Shown here: in pieces, positions 7,122-13,287 of the stretch
How the letters are laid out: every line of letters starts with the position of its first letter
How positions within the stretch are numbered: position 1 is the stretch's first letter
Assembly (NCBI RefSeq): GCF_015667585.1
Contig: NZ_JADPEG010000015.1
Coordinates: 1 to 64,000 of the forward strand
Length of the DNA: 64,000 nt
Source of the DNA: Clostridium sp. D33t1_170424_F3
GTDB lineage: Bacteria > Bacillota > Clostridia > Oscillospirales > Acutalibacteraceae
Reading direction: 5' to 3'
Program-made: the position numbers and the translations under genes
Notes under the pieces: generated by a model
What the model saw: the letters and a program-made list of their open reading frames with translations, nothing else
What the model was told of the DNA's origin: nothing
The model's database searches: none

Positions 7122-7448
7122 CTATTTGTTTTGCAGCTCAACCAGCTTTCGAATCTGTTCCAAAGCGTAATCCTGGAAATCCGGGCGTAAAGCTTGAAAA
7201 ATCTCCAACGCTTCTTCCAATTTCTTGTTACAGGGAGGGGTGTGATTGAACATTTCACCTTCTCCTGTTTTAAGCCAAACCTCGTTTACGCCATACAGAT
7301 CGCAAATATGGCGAAGTTGAAGCTCCTTTGGCTGTACCCGGCCGTATTCCAAATTGCTGATCACATCTCTGCTGACCCCCAGTTTTTCTCCAAACTCTCT
7401 TTGTGATAAATTTAAAGCCTCTCTCACAGCTTTTATTCTATTAGACAA
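7122..7448 (-). CDS. Xre/HTH_3 family transcriptional repressor
   Basis: 108-residue DNA-binding protein. Residues about 5-58 form a helix-turn-helix of the Cro/CI type (LNLSQREFGEKLGVSRDVISNLEYG), followed by the WLKTGEGEMF segment common in phage and mobile-element repressors of Clostridia, and a helical C-terminus that probably dimerises. It is divergent from the 58-residue gene at 7600, and the shared intergenic region has symmetric promoters whose -35 hexamers lie in an inverted repeat, so auto- and cross-repression is likely. A prophage-type CI/Cro switch is the closest known arrangement. The direct target genes are not known. Confidence 0.85.
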   Translation of the reverse strand: MSNRIKAVREALNLSQREFGEKLGVSRDVISNLEYGRVQPKELQLRHICDLYGVNEVWLKTGEGEMFNHTPPCNKKLEEALEIFQALRPDFQDYALEQIRKLVELQNK

Positions 7449-7509: not shown

Positions 7510-7540
7510 CACAAAATAGGCAAAGATGAAGTGTTGACAA
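7503..7540. promoter_or_regulatory. Symmetric operator between divergent promoters
   Basis: TTGTCAACAC (7503-7512) and GTGTTGACAA (7531-7540) are perfect reverse complements 18 bases apart, and each contains the -35 hexamer of one divergent promoter. Further GTGTT half-sites occur at 7553-7560 and 7568-7575 (7 of 8 bases symmetric), overlapping and following the plus-strand -10. Repeated half-sites over both promoters are what a CI-type repressor recognises; binding by the neighbouring Xre protein is inferred. Confidence 0.6.
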
Positions 7541-7562
7541 CTCACATAAAACGTGTTATATT
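7534..7562 (+). promoter_or_regulatory. Promoter of the 58-residue gene
   Basis: -35 TTGACA (7534-7539), 17-base spacer, -10 TATATT (7557-7562). The -10 is overlapped by a GTGTT half-site, which fits repression by the divergent Xre protein. Confidence 0.65.
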
Positions 7563-7599: not shown

Positions 7600-7776
7600 A
7601 TGACACAGAACGAAGAACAAATTAAAAGGATTGCGGAGTTGAACTCAATTTTTCTTACTTTGGATGACAAAGGCCAAGACAGCGTATTGATGATCTTGCG
7701 GTCATTGGACTTTGCTCAGTCTGTCATGAACTTGTCACAAGAAGGTGAAAAGTTTTCCAAGAACCGTCTAGCTTAA
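7600..7776 (+). CDS. Small hypothetical protein next to Xre repressor
   Basis: 58-residue protein beginning MTQNEEQIKRI, not matched to a named family. ATG at 7600 is placed by an AAGGAG sequence about 10 bases upstream and by the consensus promoter at 7534-7562. Composition is hydrophilic and helical with no membrane segment, signal peptide or recognisable helix-turn-helix. Its position opposite the repressor is where phage-like switches carry Cro, an antirepressor or a small stability protein, but no motif supports any of these. The gene ends before a hairpin at 7889-7919. Confidence 0.6.
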   Translation: MTQNEEQIKRIAELNSIFLTLDDKGQDSVLMILRSLDFAQSVMNLSQEGEKFSKNRLA

Positions 7777-7998: not shown

Positions 7999-8018
7999 TA
8001 AAGTAAATAACTTTAAGA
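7999..8018 (+). repeat. Left arm of 20-bp inverted repeat around recombinase gene
   Basis: TAAAGTAAATAACTTTAAGA is the exact reverse complement of 9426-9445. Within it, TAAAG and CTTTA are opposed arms around a 7-base centre (TAAATAA), the shape of a tyrosine-recombinase core site with an asymmetric overlap region. Inverted orientation of the two copies predicts inversion rather than excision of the intervening DNA. Confidence 0.7.
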
Positions 8019-8023
8019 AAAAA

Positions 8024-8063
8024 GGCGCGAAATGCAGGTGTTGTCCTGCATTTCGCGCCTTTT
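8024..8063. terminator. Strong bidirectional terminator inside the inverted repeat
   Basis: Perfect 15-bp G+C-rich stem (8024-8038 with 8045-8059), six-base loop, flanked by A6 on the left and T4 on the right, so it can act on both strands. It ends the recombinase transcript on the minus strand. It sits six bases inside the left repeat arm, so inversion would place it just upstream of the spoVT-like gene. Confidence 0.75.
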
Positions 8064-8084
8064 GACTAAAAAGCTGACGGCAAA

Positions 8085-9212
8085 TCAAGCTGGTTTTAAT
8101 CCGTCCATATAACGCCTTTTTAAGTCCATAGAAGGGTGTACATAGCGGTTCATCGTTGTATTCACATTTGCATGGCCTAAAAGCTCGCTTAAACTTTTTA
8201 CATCAAACTTGTTTTCTACACATCGTGTGGCAAAGGTATGCCGAAGTACATGAAAATTATAACTCTTAAGGCCCGCTGCTTTTAAATATCGCTTAAAGTA
8301 ATTCTGGTACGTACGGGGCTCTAAATACCGTCCTTCTTTTCCTGTTAAAATAAATGCTTGGGGAGAGATCCCTTTTGAGAGATCAAACAAAATGTCTTCC
8401 AAAAAGGCAGGCAGGGGGATATCTCGGATCGAACTCTGGCTTTTCGGCGTATCGAGAATGACAGAAGTCTTTGTCTTTGCATTGGGGTCTTCGTTATGGA
8501 TGCGCTGCAGGGTACCACGTACCATTAATATACCAGACACAAAAGAAATGTTTTCCCATTTTAATGCACAGAGTTCGCCTAAGCGCAATCCTGTATACAA
8601 AGCCAGCAGGATTCCTGCTGTTTGATAATTTAAATTATTTAATAAAAAATTTTCTAGTATTTGTCTTTCCTTAGAGGATAAAACTGTTACTTCTTTCACG
8701 GTTACTTTTGGCTTAATAGATAGATTATAATAAGGACTCAAACATAGGTGCTGTTTTTCTCCATAATCCAGTGCAGATTTTAACAGATAGAGAATATCTG
8801 ATATTGTTTTTGGGGAAAGCCCTCCGGATTTGTCAATTCTTCCACTGGCGATTTTCTGCTCCACAAAACGATCAAGGCGGTCTGCGGTAATCATATCAAG
8901 CCTGATATCGCCAAGCCCAGGTAATATATGTTGGTTTGCTAAAAAGGTATACTGGCTAAAGGTAGAAGCTTTTACCGTAACACGAATTGCGCGAAGCCAT
9001 AGTACAAACAAATCCGACACCGTTAAGCTATGGGTATATTGCGGTTGGTCAACAATAAGAGACGTCTTTTTTAAAGCTGATTTGACTTCCAAATAGGTTT
9101 TTCCATAGATGGAACGATATTTTGCTTTTCCGTTTTCAGCGTATCCGACGAGATAGCGACCTTCCCAACGGCCATCTTTTCGTTTGTAAATATTTTCTCC
9201 TTTTCTGGGCAT
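8085..9212 (-). CDS. Tyrosine recombinase/integrase (phage/Tn916 type)
   Basis: 375-residue site-specific recombinase. The ATG at 9212 is preferred over an in-frame ATG at 9245 because AGAGGTGG precedes it directly. Residues 1-60 carry an AP2-like arm-binding domain (GENIYKRKDGRWEGRY), about 65-170 a SAM-like core-binding domain, and about 180-365 the catalytic domain with the R-H-R-H-Y set: TGLRLGE, HVLRHTFATR, LLGHANVNTT and nucleophile NRYVHP. Relatives catalyse integration, excision or inversion. Here no excisionase, relaxase or other mobile-element gene is present, and a 20-bp inverted repeat flanks the gene. Acting as an invertase on its own surroundings is inferred; a leftover integrative element is the main alternative. 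Confidence 0.9.
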   Translation of the reverse strand: MPRKGENIYKRKDGRWEGRYLVGYAENGKAKYRSIYGKTYLEVKSALKKTSLIVDQPQYTHSLTVSDLFVLWLRAIRVTVKASTFSQYTFLANQHILPGLGDIRLDMITADRLDRFVEQKIASGRIDKSGGLSPKTISDILYLLKSALDYGEKQHLCLSPYYNLSIKPKVTVKEVTVLSSKERQILENFLLNNLNYQTAGILLALYTGLRLGELCALKWENISFVSGILMVRGTLQRIHNEDPNAKTKTSVILDTPKSQSSIRDIPLPAFLEDILFDLSKGISPQAFILTGKEGRYLEPRTYQNYFKRYLKAAGLKSYNFHVLRHTFATRCVENKFDVKSLSELLGHANVNTTMNRYVHPSMDLKRRYMDGLKPA

Positions 9213-9258
9213 TTTTCCACCTCTTATCTCTAATTTTATGACCAAAAAATTGACGGGA

Positions 9259-9286
9259 ATTATATCTGCTACATTTATATTGTTAA
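9259..9286 (-). promoter_or_regulatory. Probable promoter of the recombinase gene
   Basis: On the minus strand: TTAACA (9281-9286), 16-base spacer, TATAAT (9259-9264), about 40 bases upstream of the ATG at 9212. Confidence 0.5.
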
Positions 9287-9367
9287 CAAATCGTAAAGAA
9301 ATTTGTTACCGAAAATTCACTAATATCCCAAAGATGCATAAATTTGCAGAAAAAAGAATTTTGAACC

Positions 9368-9396
9368 TTGCGATATAAGGGGGCAGGGATTATAAT
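9368..9396 (+). promoter_or_regulatory. Outward promoter toward spoVT-like gene
   Basis: TTGCGA (9368-9373), 17-base spacer, perfect TATAAT (9391-9396), pointing right. It lies just inside the right arm of the inverted repeat (9426-9445), and the transcript would cross that arm into the gene at 9595 after a leader of about 190 bases. No hairpin terminator is seen between it and the gene in the present orientation. Confidence 0.55.
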
Positions 9397-9425
9397 ATAC
9401 AGAAGAATTTCGACCGTTTTTTACA

Positions 9426-9445
9426 TCTTAAAGTTATTTACTTTA
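9426..9445 (-). repeat. Right arm of 20-bp inverted repeat around recombinase gene
   Basis: Exact reverse complement of 7999-8018, 1.4 kb away. It separates the outward promoter at 9368-9396 from the spoVT-like gene at 9595. Confidence 0.7.
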
Positions 9446-9594
9446 GGAAAAGAATTTGAAATAGTTCAGGAAAATCTTTTGGTATGTAAAGGAGCGATTT
9501 ATTTACCTATAGCTGAATGAAGACTGTGCGCTAATGTATTTACGCTTTACTAGAATACCACATTTTAACAAAATTTGCTAGGAGGAGAATTAAA

Positions 9595-10131
9595 TTGAAA
9601 GCTACTGGTATTGTCCGAAGAATCGACGACTTAGGAAGAGTCGTCATCCCAAAGGAGATTCGTCGTACTCTGAGGATTTTTGAGGGTGATGCGCTGGAAA
9701 TATTTACCGATGCACAGGGAGGGGTTACTTTTAAAAAGTATTCCCCTGTGGGAGAATTGGCGGCGTTTGCGGAACAGTATGCGGAAGTTCTGAGCAGTGT
9801 AACAGGCAAGCCCTCTGTTATTTGTGATAAAGATCATGTTATTGCTGCTGGAATATCCCGAAAAGAATATATTGGCAGACGTGTTTCTGTAGAATTGGAC
9901 GATTATTTACAGGAGCAAAAATCGTATATTTGCAAAGAAAATGACGAGAAGCTTTATCCGATAGAGGGAATTGATAAAGTGGCTGGCGTTGTATATCCGA
10001 TTGTTGTTTCCAGTGAAATTATGGGTGCAGTGGTTTTACTGCAAGATGATGAGTTTGTGCCGGCAAATGAATCAGAAGAGAAACTGACAAGAGCAGCAGC
10101 AAGCTTTTTAAGTAAACAGATGGAAAAGTAA
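9595..10131 (+). CDS. spoVT: SpoVT-family AbrB-type transcriptional regulator
   Basis: 178 residues, the same length as Bacillus SpoVT. Residues 1-50 are a SpoVT/AbrB swapped-hairpin DNA-binding domain (TGIVRRIDDLGRVVIPKEIR), and about 55-175 a GAF-like sensory domain. Translation starts at TTG 9595 behind GGAGGAG. In Bacillus, SpoVT tunes late forespore genes. Here it lies between the recombinase element and the polysaccharide locus rather than near usual sporulation neighbours, so it may be a SpoVT-like paralogue acting on surface polysaccharide genes; this is inferred from position. Its transcription likely depends on the promoter at 9368-9396, which sits on the potentially invertible side of the repeat. 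Confidence 0.85.
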   Translation: MKATGIVRRIDDLGRVVIPKEIRRTLRIFEGDALEIFTDAQGGVTFKKYSPVGELAAFAEQYAEVLSSVTGKPSVICDKDHVIAAGISRKEYIGRRVSVELDDYLQEQKSYICKENDEKLYPIEGIDKVAGVVYPIVVSSEIMGAVVLLQDDEFVPANESEEKLTRAAASFLSKQMEK

Positions 10132-10288
10132 GCTGTGCAAAAGCGGTTTAGGAATTGTAAAGCTTTGTTCTAAAATTAAGAATTGCATCATTGCTTGATT
10201 TTTAAAAGTCATATATTGTGCAGGGAATATGGATCAGTGAAATGGAATAAAACGCGATTTAGGAGTTTGTAGATTTGGTTGGGTAAAG

Positions 10289-10366
10289 TTATTTTATCCG
10301 AAAAAACGCCATGATTACAAACATGGTGATACCACCGAAGATAAAGCAGGCGATATTTATCCACAT
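10289..10366 (-). CDS. Tiny membrane protein, DUF3789-like
   Basis: 25-residue open frame, MWINIACFIFGGITMFVIMA plus a short basic tail (FFRIK). It is preceded by AAGGTGG eight bases before the ATG at 10366 on the minus strand. A Trp-Ile start, one membrane helix with central GG and a short basic cytoplasmic end match the layout of DUF3789 peptides, which are often attached to mobile or surface loci in Clostridia. The function of that family is not known. It lies in the otherwise empty 310-base gap between the spoVT-like gene and the sugar transferase. Confidence 0.5.
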   Translation of the reverse strand: MWINIACFIFGGITMFVIMAFFRIK

Positions 10367-10441
10367 GGTACTGTCCACCTTTCAATAAAGTTACGTTATG
10401 AGATTTGCGTTTTATGAGGGATCATGCGGAGGGAAACTGAT

Positions 10442-11083
10442 ATGATATTTCGCTTTTGTAAAAGAATGTTTGACGTTATGGCAGCGTTACTTGGGCTTGT
10501 TATACTGCTTCCTGTATGTTGTGTTGTGGGAGTTGTCATTAAATTGGAATCCCCTGGTCCCGTGTTGTTCAGGCAGCCGAGAATGGGATTACATATGAAG
10601 CCGTTTACAATTTATAAATTTCGAACCATGTATGTAGAGGCACCGAAAAACTGCGCTACCAGAAATTTGGAAAACTCAGGTTCTTATATCACGCCTGTCG
10701 GAAAGTTTCTGCGCAATACGAGTATTGACGAAATCCCGCAGCTGATAAACATTCTCAAAGGAGAAATGAGTTTTATTGGTCCCCGGCCTGTTGTCCTTTC
10801 AGAAATAGATTTAATTCAGTCCAGAGAAGAGAAAGGCGTTTACGGTGTAAGGCCCGGATTGTCCGGCTGGGCGCAGATCAATGGGCGCGATTTAGTAAGT
10901 GTAGAAGATAAGACGTCTTACGATACATACTATGTGGATCATTATGGTTTTAAAATAGATATGCTTATATTCTTGAAGACCATTCTTTATGTGTTAAAGA
11001 GAGCCGATATTCAAGAGGGGAAAACAAAGGTCTTTCGTTTTGAAAAACAAATGGAAGATTCTGTTGAAAATAAAGCAAGTTGA
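10442..11083 (+). CDS. Initiating undecaprenyl-phosphate sugar phosphotransferase
   Basis: 213-residue bacterial sugar transferase (polyprenol-phosphate hexose-1-P transferase family). ATG 10442 is chosen because GGAGGG precedes it; an ATG at 10424 would place that site inside the gene. One N-terminal membrane segment (about 10-32) anchors a cytoplasmic catalytic region with KFRTM, the conserved SIDEIPQL region, [10 protein letters not shown] and RPGLSGWAQ motifs. It transfers a sugar-1-phosphate to undecaprenyl phosphate, the first step in repeat-unit assembly. Family members use galactose, glucose or GalNAc-type donors; this one's donor cannot be told. It heads the polysaccharide genes running to 23042. 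Confidence 0.92.
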
Positions 11084-11128
11084 GTGCTTGCATTTTTGTA
11101 TTGATTTTATTTAGAGAGGATTGAAAAC

Positions 11129-11824
11129 ATGGAGGAAACTACCGAGCTCGATTTGCGGGAACTCTTTTATGTCGTTCGTAAACACATGAAAGGGATTTTC
11201 GCCGGGTTAGCGGTTGGTCTGATTTGCGCTGTATTGATTTCGATGTTTGTGCTGCCTAAAAAGTATACTTCGTCGGTTTCGCTATATGTAAATAATGGAC
11301 AGCCAATTATAAATAATGCTTTAAATATGAATGATATTAACGCTTCCCAAAAACTGGTTGGCACTTACATTGTGATTTTGCAGGATGAGCATGTCATGGA
11401 ACAGGTGGCAGAACAATTGAGCAGCCCGCTTTCAGCTGCTCAGCTGGCCGGGATGATTTCCATGGGAGCGGTAAACGATACAGAAGTTCTAGCTATTTTT
11501 GCCAATACAGAGGATCCGCAGCTTTCAGCAGAGATTTGCAATGTCTATGCGGACATTGCACCAAAGGTTCTGCAGCGTGTGGTAAAAGCAGGCTCTGTGG
11601 AAGTGCTGGGAGAGGCAAAGGCGGCAACGTCTCCTTCTTCTCCGAGTGTGGTGAAAAACGGCTTGATTGGAGCTTTGGCTGGTTTGGTCCTTATGCTTGG
11701 ATGGACATTCTACCGGGAAATGGCGGACAATACGGTTAAGAGTGAAGATGATCTAAGGAAACATATCGATGTTCCTGTGTTGGGTGAAATCCCCAAAATC
11801 CATATTGAAAAGGAAAGAAGGTGA
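11129..11824 (+). CDS. Wzz/CpsC-type polysaccharide co-polymerase
   Basis: 231 residues with membrane segments at about 23-42 and 172-191 enclosing an extracytoplasmic Wzz domain, and a cytoplasmic tail ending PVLGEIPKI. In Firmicutes this protein controls chain length and activates the adjacent tyrosine kinase, whose ATPase domain is a separate polypeptide as here. It lies 45 bases after the sugar transferase, with GAGAGGA as ribosome site. The next gene starts five bases after its stop, supporting coupled translation. Confidence 0.9.
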   Translation: MEETTELDLRELFYVVRKHMKGIFAGLAVGLICAVLISMFVLPKKYTSSVSLYVNNGQPIINNALNMNDINASQKLVGTYIVILQDEHVMEQVAEQLSSPLSAAQLAGMISMGAVNDTEVLAIFANTEDPQLSAEICNVYADIAPKVLQRVVKAGSVEVLGEAKAATSPSSPSVVKNGLIGALAGLVLMLGWTFYREMADNTVKSEDDLRKHIDVPVLGEIPKIHIEKERR

Positions 11825-11828
11825 TTGT

Positions 11829-12581
11829 TTGGCAAAGCGTTATTTAAAAGGTATGGAAAAGCTGAACTCGACCTTATGGACCAGCTACAAACTGGATGAT
11901 GCGAAAAAATTCCATGTGACAGAGGCGTATAAACTGATTCGGACCAATTTGCTGTTTACTTTATCAGATGCGGATAAAAAAGTTGTTTTGGTTTCAAGTG
12001 CGGAGCCCGATGCGGGGAAATCCATCAGTTGTGCAAATTTGGCAATTTCGATGGCGCAAACAGGTGCGCGCGTTTTGCTGATCGACGCCGACATGCGCCG
12101 TGCTGTACAACACCGTATTTTTGGTATTCCGAAGGGAAAGGGGATTTCCCAGTTACTGGGCGGATTTTGCGGCCTGGAAGATGCGATTGTGCATGATAAG
12201 TCGTCGTTAGATATTATAACGGCAGGTCAGCAGCCTCCTAATCCAGTGGAACTGCTTGCATCCAAATCAATGAATACAATTCTGGAAAAGTTGTCTGAAC
12301 AATATGATTATATTTTCATTGATACGCCTCCGGTGAACATTCTTTCGGACGCTTTGGTTTTGGCTGATAAGGTCGCAGGTGTTGTTTTGATTGCCAGACA
12401 AAAGCAAACGACTTACGACATCCTGCAAAAGGCGATTGACAGTATTCGCAAGGTGGATGGCGTGGTTCTTGGAACGGTAATCAATGATGTTGAAGAGAAA
12501 AATAAACCGTATAAATCCTACTCTTCCTACTATAGCTCCTATTATGGGAGCTATGAGCCAAAAAAAACAGCGGAAAAATGA
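11829..12581 (+). CDS. BY-kinase (CpsD/CapB-type tyrosine autokinase)
   Basis: 250 residues beginning at TTG 11829 (MAKRYLKGMEK), with AAGGTG seven bases upstream inside the end of the preceding gene. An upstream in-frame ATG at 11769 would overlap that gene by 56 bases and is disfavoured. Walker A AEPDAGKS at about 58-65, Walker A' LLIDADMR at 83-90 and Walker B FIDTPP near 157-162 define the kinase. A tyrosine-rich tail (YSSYYSSYYGSY) supplies the autophosphorylation cluster. It works with the co-polymerase before it and is reset by the PHP phosphatase after it, so polysaccharide output is likely tuned by tyrosine phosphorylation. Confidence 0.93.
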   Translation: MAKRYLKGMEKLNSTLWTSYKLDDAKKFHVTEAYKLIRTNLLFTLSDADKKVVLVSSAEPDAGKSISCANLAISMAQTGARVLLIDADMRRAVQHRIFGIPKGKGISQLLGGFCGLEDAIVHDKSSLDIITAGQQPPNPVELLASKSMNTILEKLSEQYDYIFIDTPPVNILSDALVLADKVAGVVLIARQKQTTYDILQKAIDSIRKVDGVVLGTVINDVEEKNKPYKSYSSYYSSYYGSYEPKKTAEK

Positions 12582-12591
12582 GGGGAATGCC

Positions 12592-13287
12592 ATGTGGACA
12601 GATTTTCACAGCCATGTTCTTCCTGGAATAGACGATGGTGCCAAAGATGTGAAAGAAGCTTCTGTGATGTTGCACACTATGGAAAATCAGCAGGTGAAGA
12701 CAGTATTTGCTACTCCACATTATTATGCTCATTGTGAAAAGATTGAGGATTTTGTGGAGAAAAGGCAAGTTGCCTGCACTCAATTGGAAGAAGCAAAAGG
12801 GGATTCCATGAAAGTCGCCCTGCGAATGGCTGCGGAAGTAGCGCTTGAGCCGGAAATTTGCCGGTTGGATTTAACGCCGCTTTTTTATGAGGATTTATCC
12901 GCTGTTCTGCTTGAATTGCCGGCATCCCACTATAAAAGCTGGATGTCACAGGAAATTGAAGAGGTTGCGTACACCTTTTCAGTTATTCCAATATTAGCGC
13001 ATTTTGAAAGATACCTGTGGTACGAACGGGAAGGTCTGCGGGAGCTTTTGCGGCTTCCTAAAGTGGTTGTTCAAATAAGCGCCAATATGCTGGCCAACCG
13101 GGAAACAATGGATTTAATAAAAGACTTGTATTCCTTAGGAATCCCAGTTTTGTTGGGCAGCGACGCACATAATTGCGGGACACGGCCGGTGTGCTTTGAT
13201 ATTGCGCAAAAGATTTTAAAGAAGAGAAAGTATGGAGAGTTAGAAGCTTGGATTACTGAAAGTACGCAGATGATTCTCAGCAGTTGA
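12592..13287 (+). CDS. CpsB/YwqE-type PHP tyrosine phosphatase
   Basis: 231-residue metal-dependent phosphatase. The ATG at 12592, behind GAGGGGA, gives the standard start MWTDFHSHVLPGIDDG; an upstream in-frame ATG at 12484 lies inside the kinase gene. The metal-binding HSH at residues 6-8, the GIDDG motif, an Ala-Glu-Val segment in the centre and LLGSDAHN near the end fit the PHP fold that binds a three-metal centre. Relatives remove phosphate from the C-terminal tyrosine cluster of the BY-kinase. It lies ten bases after the kinase gene. Confidence 0.92.
   Translation: MWTDFHSHVLPGIDDGAKDVKEASVMLHTMENQQVKTVFATPHYYAHCEKIEDFVEKRQVACTQLEEAKGDSMKVALRMAAEVALEPEICRLDLTPLFYEDLSAVLLELPASHYKSWMSQEIEEVAYTFSVIPILAHFERYLWYEREGLRELLRLPKVVVQISANMLANRETMDLIKDLYSLGIPVLLGSDAHNCGTRPVCFDIAQKILKKRKYGELEAWITESTQMILSS

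Follow-up and report, generated by a model that had tools for sequence, protein, structure and literature searches.

Positions 7999-9445 of the analysed DNA (the window, a stretch of 64,000 nucleotides from Clostridium sp. D33t1_170424_F3) very likely form a self-contained invertible promoter cassette; its inversion in this strain is inferred. Within about 1.4 kb, two inverted arms enclosed a complete tyrosine recombinase gene, an outward promoter and a terminator. The arms, the identity of their spacers, the promoter, the terminator, the catalytic residues, their conservation and the occurrence of both orientations among relatives were shown by sequence and comparison. The reach of the arrangement across a whole family of loci is the main interest of the finding.

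Layout of the cassette and its closest relative

The left arm (TAAAGTAAATAACTTTAAGA) and the right arm (TCTTAAAGTTATTTACTTTA) matched over 20 of 20 bp as a perfect inverted repeat, with an imperfect extension to 33 nt. A perfect 20-bp pair is expected by chance about 1e-5 times per 4.5 kb (our own estimate); the match is far beyond chance for the region. Each arm was a core site of 9+5+9 bp, TCNTAAAGT-AAATA-ACTTTAAGA, and its asymmetric 5-bp spacer was the same in both arms. The 9-bp half-sites, TCCTAAAGT or TCGTAAAGT on the outside and TCTTAAAGT on the inside, had the form typical of a tyrosine-recombinase core site. Both arms were near-palindromic and adjoined promoters or the terminator. 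All features are listed in Table 1.

Table 1. Positions in the window of the cassette parts and of the genes presumed to be under its control
Feature	Position	Strand	Basis or remark
Left arm (arm_down), recombination core site	7999..8018	+	Spacer AAATA read from flank inwards; perfect inverted repeat of 9426-9445
Two-way hairpin terminator, just inside left arm	8020..8063	.	19 perfect pairs, fold z = -8
Arm-type site candidate, left copy	8064..8080	-	CCGTCAGCTTTTTAGTC on minus strand
Tyrosine recombinase, 376 aa	~8085..9215 (gene also given as 8088-9215)	-	Pfam; invariant catalytic residues; Tn1549 Int the nearest solved relative
Arm-type site candidate, right copy	9240..9256	-	CCGTCAATTTTTTGGTC on minus strand, ~41 nt before ATG
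Probable recombinase promoter, TTAACA-16-TATAAT	9259..9286	-	11/12 consensus positions
Outward (switch) promoter, TTGCGA-17-TATAAT	9368..9396	+	29 bp before right arm, facing the spoVT-like gene as assembled
Right arm (arm_up), recombination core site	9426..9445	-	Unchanged in Anaeromassilibacillus senegalensis mt9 (L015)
Presumed target: SpoVT-like AbrB-type regulator, 178 aa, TTG start	9595..10131	+	SpoVT_C 7e-34; Shine-Dalgarno ~9581-9588
Possible extended target: start of polysaccharide locus	10424..13287	+	ORFs; Bac_transf
Sugar transferase	10424-11083	+	Bac_transf; the only polysaccharide gene checked against family libraries
Wzz-like	11129-11824	+	ORF
CpsD-like kinase	11769-12581	+	ORF
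PHP-like phosphatase	12484-13287	+	ORF

Promoters at this locus were called by consensus recognition in the sequence only, without transcription data. The outward promoter was the sole plus-strand sigma-70-like site found within 8807-9595, and with its TTGCGA it was weaker than in most relatives. The hairpin inside the left arm carried its T-tract on the recombinase side. An initial annotation had described a perfect 20-bp inverted repeat around a tyrosine recombinase gene, an outward promoter at 9368-9396 near the right arm and a strong two-way terminator at 8024-8063 near the left arm; all three held. It mentioned neither the 9+5+9 structure of the core sites with identical spacers nor the 17-bp arm-type motif, which occurs twice in direct orientation. 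Neither an excisionase nor a cargo gene was found between the arms, which held only the recombinase. To the left of the cassette lay a divergent pair, an XRE regulator (7122-7448, minus) and a 58-aa protein (7600-7773, plus), with a near-consensus promoter at 7534-7562; the gene for the 58-aa protein was directed at the left arm.

The recombinase ORF spanned 8085-9245 on the minus strand, with a likely ATG start at 9215. The Pfam domains Phage_int_SAM_3 and Phage_integrase identified the product as a tyrosine, not a serine, recombinase, and the catalytic residues R211, H322, R325, H348 and Y358 were invariant in the 16 family members compared. The protein consisted of an N-terminal beta-beta-beta-alpha unit, a SAM-like core-binding domain and a catalytic domain; the N-terminal fold came from a model only (mean pLDDT 83.5). 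Beta-beta-beta-alpha is the fold of integrase arm-binding domains. The nearest solved proteins, both by profile and by fold, were Tn1549 integrase structures, and PHROG and NCBIfam assigned the recombinase only to broad integrase/Xer groups. No convincing trans core site was found in the same genome with up to two mismatches allowed, and no third copy of the core site was found near the cassette of any relative; each recombinase is therefore likely to be dedicated to its own cassette. Near matches at C8 and C33 were rejected as trans sites, the one being a palindrome beside another promoter and the other a diverged 81% repeat. A sequence of about 870 bp formed an inverted repeat elsewhere in the genome with about 81% identity (L005/L006, G000:C33, 11 kb apart).

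The closest relative, Anaeromassilibacillus senegalensis mt9 (L015), had the same cassette, arms, promoter, terminator, neighbours and orientation, and its recombinase was 96% identical in amino acids. Divergence between the two was 1.9% in 9216-9425, 8.8% in the recombinase and 13-15% in the intergenic DNA outside. In the terminator stem, four pairs had changed on both sides and none on one side only, a compensatory pattern; the loop was exactly inverted between the species (TGTTGT versus ACAACA). The initial annotation had held that loss or divergence of the arms in relatives keeping the recombinase would refute a switch. This was not the case, as A. senegalensis kept both, with a single substitution in the left arm outside the spacer. 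The high conservation of the promoter/leader region 9216-9425 (98.1%, versus 91.2% for the recombinase gene) recurred in one other pair (L221/L222); it was rejected as a general feature of the family, being absent in other species pairs. No flipped orientation was found within the genus, where only one of three other members had the recombinase, in the same orientation. The spoVT/EPS neighbourhood was conserved only in A. senegalensis, and its conservation in distant relatives was rejected.

Sites, motifs and orientation across the family

A scan of one GTDB genome per species returned 80 relatives; 75 loci were testable (74 relatives plus the D33t1_170424_F3 locus). Paired inverted core sites occurred at the same two positions in 62 of the 75, at nearly fixed distances of about 200 bp before the recombinase ATG and about 85 bp after its stop codon, and the consensus of their half-sites resembled TCGTAAAGT or TCGCAAAT. 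A second set of 30 loci, few of them shared with the first, gave a similar picture, 25 of 29 testable loci passing the paired-inverted-site test. Recognisable sites were missing in 13/75 loci, which were dispersed across the recombinase tree, and a search for short invertons beside recombinases without flanking sites gave nothing convincing. The crossover spacer was identical between the two arms in 73 of 74 scored loci. By contrast, 61 different spacers occurred, and spacers matched between loci in only 17 of 1457 comparisons. There is no other evident reason for the spacers of a pair to agree, and their identity is thus likely to be a trace of recombination between the arms. No spacer among the scored loci was palindromic and the core sites were inverted, not direct, in every one, so the reaction dictated by them is inversion.

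A close relative of the recombinase was encoded in 48 of 295 sampled genomes of the order (about 1 in 6). Family recombinases with paired inverted sites were also seen on IMG/VR contigs classed as viral (L096, L100, L102, L104, L107, L108). Distant relatives with about 35% identity occurred on E. raffinosus megaplasmids (L174, L175, L177, L178, L179), where inverted perfect repeats of 25-26 bp surrounded the recombinase; a signal-peptidase gene lay nearby in L175.

An outward near-consensus sigma-70 promoter (TTGACA-17-TATAAT-like) was present in about 55 of 57 loci, at a median of 33 bp from the upstream arm and with a mean strength of z 4.1 over shuffles (57 loci); it was not found in L093 and L094. 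The inward promoters of the recombinase were weak in most relatives. Terminator-like hairpins inside the other arm were found in 20/78 loci against 4.5 expected; as the hairpin was recognisable in so few, the terminator is not constant across the family. The motif CCGTC[AG]-N-GTC was found on the recombinase strand about 16 bp after the stop codon in 48/57 loci and on the same strand about 40 bp before the start in 49/57. Shuffle controls gave, over all loci together, about 0.1 after the stop and 0.04 before the start. The 17-bp motif with its two halves was present at both ends in about 85% of loci. It is likely the best candidate for an arm-type site bound by the N-terminal domain of the recombinase, binding being inferred.

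Sixty servable neighbouring genes were recorded, with HTH (8) and LytTR/response regulator (6) as the commonest domains; others were cation ATPases, an EAL protein, an S-layer protein, a polysaccharide deacetylase and an ErmB-type rRNA adenine dimethylase. Since regulators and surface structures are frequent among the adjacent genes, a single flip could reset a whole programme. The ermB-linked cassette and its flanks were essentially identical in at least six genera (Butyricicoccus, Blautia, Agathobaculum, Negativibacillus, Eisenbergiella and Brotaphodocola). In these nearly identical copies (L045, L047-L051 and L214, matching ~5001-6113 of L045), the cassette preceded an XRE-like gene and the gene for an rRNA methylase of ErmB type, always with its terminator facing them. 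Large neighbours were rejected as defence systems, only one giving a weak Avs2 match.

Both orientations were present among relatives, and the only close relative of the D33t1_170424_F3 locus matched its orientation. The recombinases of L056 and L064 were sisters (100/78 support), and their 1413-bp cassettes were colinear and 88.5% identical. The flank at the downstream arm in L056 and L053 joined the upstream arm in L064, with homology beginning at distance 0 from the arm; the gene on this shared flank was part of a LytTR response-regulator/histidine-kinase-like pair. The cassette is thus likely to be reversed in L064 relative to L056, the breakpoint coinciding exactly with the arm. Only one of their two flanks was shared at length, and replacement of the other is not excluded. 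Homologous operons of a SipW-type signal peptidase and a TasA-like protein (names given from the sequence, not from a library search) adjoined the promoter end of the cassette in L221-L223, which represent three species of a single genus. In L218 the operon was at the terminator end, and L229 differed from L231 in a comparable way. Because these pairs are distant, they show use in both orientations and not a single inversion.

Among the loci with a single servable neighbour, this gene was located beyond the terminator end in 30 and beyond the promoter end in 6. Most locus pairs with shared flanks had the same orientation and all seven ermB-linked copies had one orientation; flipping may therefore be rare or biased in orientation, which is no more than a possibility. 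A flipped copy of the ermB-linked block was not found in 391 class genomes, three E. raffinosus plasmids had the same orientation with no flipped form, and scans of phage contigs found no near-identical contigs in opposite orientation. Inversion, which the initial annotation had only inferred, is now strongly supported at the level of the family by paired sites, spacer identity, the promoter and both orientations; in the strain it is still inferred.

Predicted switch, its targets and rival explanations

In the proposed mechanism, the core-binding and catalytic domains of the recombinase would bind the two core sites, with the N-terminal domain probably on the two CCGTCA-type sites, and strand exchange within the identical 5-bp spacers would invert the segment that encodes the recombinase. 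In the ON state, the outward promoter would drive transcription across the right arm and into the spoVT-like gene, possibly as far as the polysaccharide operon. In the inverted, OFF state, the terminator of the recombinase would face the spoVT-like gene and the promoter would point left, to the convergent small gene. In the orientation seen, the terminator would end the recombinase transcript. The simplest reading is that the spoVT-like gene is ON as assembled, which, like any change in expression, is inferred. The earlier claim that the promoter faces the spoVT-like gene and the polysaccharide locus held as to direction, and control of the latter remains an inference. The parts for a promoter/terminator swap acting as an on/off control of the spoVT-like gene were likewise present, the control itself still being inferred.

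The spoVT-like gene scored 198 bits against TIGR02851, below the cut-off; a better SpoVT match (229 bits) lay elsewhere in the genome, and the gene is therefore likely a paralogue. It was separated from the sugar transferase by 290 bp. On the minus strand of this gap, at about 10296-10370, an ORF of 25 codons (MWINIACFIFGGITMFVIMAFFRIK, read by eye) ran antisense to any read-through. No plus-strand promoter-like site was found in 9623-10478, and no plus-strand terminator in between. This absence permits read-through from spoVT into the polysaccharide genes, which remains possible and is not shown by it. Control of the polysaccharide genes, by read-through or by the SpoVT-like regulator, is inferred and rests only on the absence of other recognisable promoters.

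Three other explanations were weighed. The locus could belong to a degenerate or minimal Tn916/Tn1549-like mobile element, as its integrase end, with the repeats as attachment ends used for excision and integration and not for inversion. The recombinase is nearest to Tn1549 Int in sequence and fold, and related cassettes occur on apparent mobile elements, including the ermB-linked one in at least six genera and some viral contigs. However, inverted core sites with non-palindromic spacers in every scored locus point to inversion rather than excision, excisionase and cargo genes are absent between the arms, and the fixed distance from promoter to arm and the unrelated, often regulatory neighbours fit a switch; we consider this explanation very unlikely. 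The arms could also serve merely for binding, letting the recombinase or another protein regulate the divergent promoters, recombination having ceased at the locus. Their near-palindromic form beside promoters or the terminator would agree with this, as would the lack of a known flipped form of the locus. A regulator, however, would have no need for a further site past the stop codon or for identical spacers (73/74 pairs, although spacers differ from locus to locus). The recombinase has also kept its catalytic residues and shares 96% identity with that of the relative, leaving this explanation very improbable as well.

The remaining alternative accepts that the cassette inverts and restricts its promoter to the spoVT paralogue, so that the polysaccharide genes would be affected directly only slightly, if at all. 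It is favoured by the 290-bp gap with its small antisense ORF, by the probable status of the spoVT-like gene as a paralogue and by the recognition of promoters by consensus only. Against it, the search of the plus strand gave no other promoter, either ahead of spoVT or in the gap to the sugar transferase, and related cassettes often neighbour regulators and surface genes; we lean against this restriction. An invertible promoter cassette remains the preferred reading of 7999-9445.

Comparison with known systems

A large family of self-flipping switches in gut Clostridia appears to be undescribed; none was found in the literature searched, the coverage of which was incomplete. A survey of invertible resistance promoters reported none outside Bacteroidales and discarded regions overlapping coding sequence (PMC8748976). 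The ermB-linked block in at least six genera suggests a resistance gene under a reversible switch outside that order. Read-based surveys may have missed such cassettes because the segment contains a gene, and the discarding of coding overlap possibly explains why they went unreported. On a bolder reading, which could as easily fail as hold, the cassettes are a coherent and widespread class of plug-in promoter switch across Bacillota, largely missed by read-based surveys. In about 1.4 kb, each would combine a Tn916/Tn1549-type recombinase, arm-type sites, an outward promoter and often a terminator, placed before unrelated targets: regulators, surface fibres, polysaccharide operons and the ermB resistance gene. 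Candidate phase-variable genes in gut Clostridia can be sought by a sequence rule: a recombinase of this family between inverted TTCGTAAAGT-type sites, the upstream one at about 200 bp and the downstream one at about 85 bp.

In a defined gut community, inverton group 139/invertase group 35 comprised 33 read-supported invertons, 32 of them from Clostridia, and group 139 was significantly linked to tyrosine-type recombinase/integrase genes near or intersecting the invertons (PMC11892184). The cassette family may overlap with these groups; the inverted-repeat motif and the sequences were not compared. RecV of C. difficile acts on switches at cwpV, flg and others, with several sites around the genome (PMC5903667). 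It resembles the present case as a tyrosine recombinase that inverts short regulatory segments in a clostridial host. The comparison with RecV made in the initial annotation is loose only, since RecV is unlinked and multi-site, whereas the recombinase here lies inside its own segment and the search of its genome yielded no additional site. In Providencia stuartii, a putative fimbrial invertible segment of 844 bp encloses a recombinase ORF (PMC5903667). There too the ORF lies within short inverted repeats, and the segment was detected by read inversion signatures; unlike the present family, it is a single case at a fimbrial locus of a gammaproteobacterium.

The integrases of Tn916/Tn1549 are the best solved relatives and share the catalytic R-H-R-H-Y and an arm-binding N-terminal domain (modelled here). 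They move conjugative transposons between direct sites with an excisionase. In contrast, the cassette sites are inverted and not direct attL/attR sites, and only the recombinase lies between them, without excisionase or transfer genes. The Salmonella Hin/H-segment, named as an example of an invertase inside its own segment (PMC5903667), likewise has about 1 kb between inverted sites with the invertase gene inside the segment that it inverts. A promoter at one end of the H-segment reads out to the target, and Hin, a serine recombinase, works with an enhancer bound by Fis. Inverted sites around the segment, an invertase inside and an outward promoter near one site were all present here, the promoter as judged from sequence only. 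However, the cassette has a tyrosine recombinase and candidate arm-type sites, and its family lies beside many unrelated targets. The layout is thus known from the H-segment, and what is new is likely its basis in a tyrosine recombinase of the Tn916/Tn1549 type.
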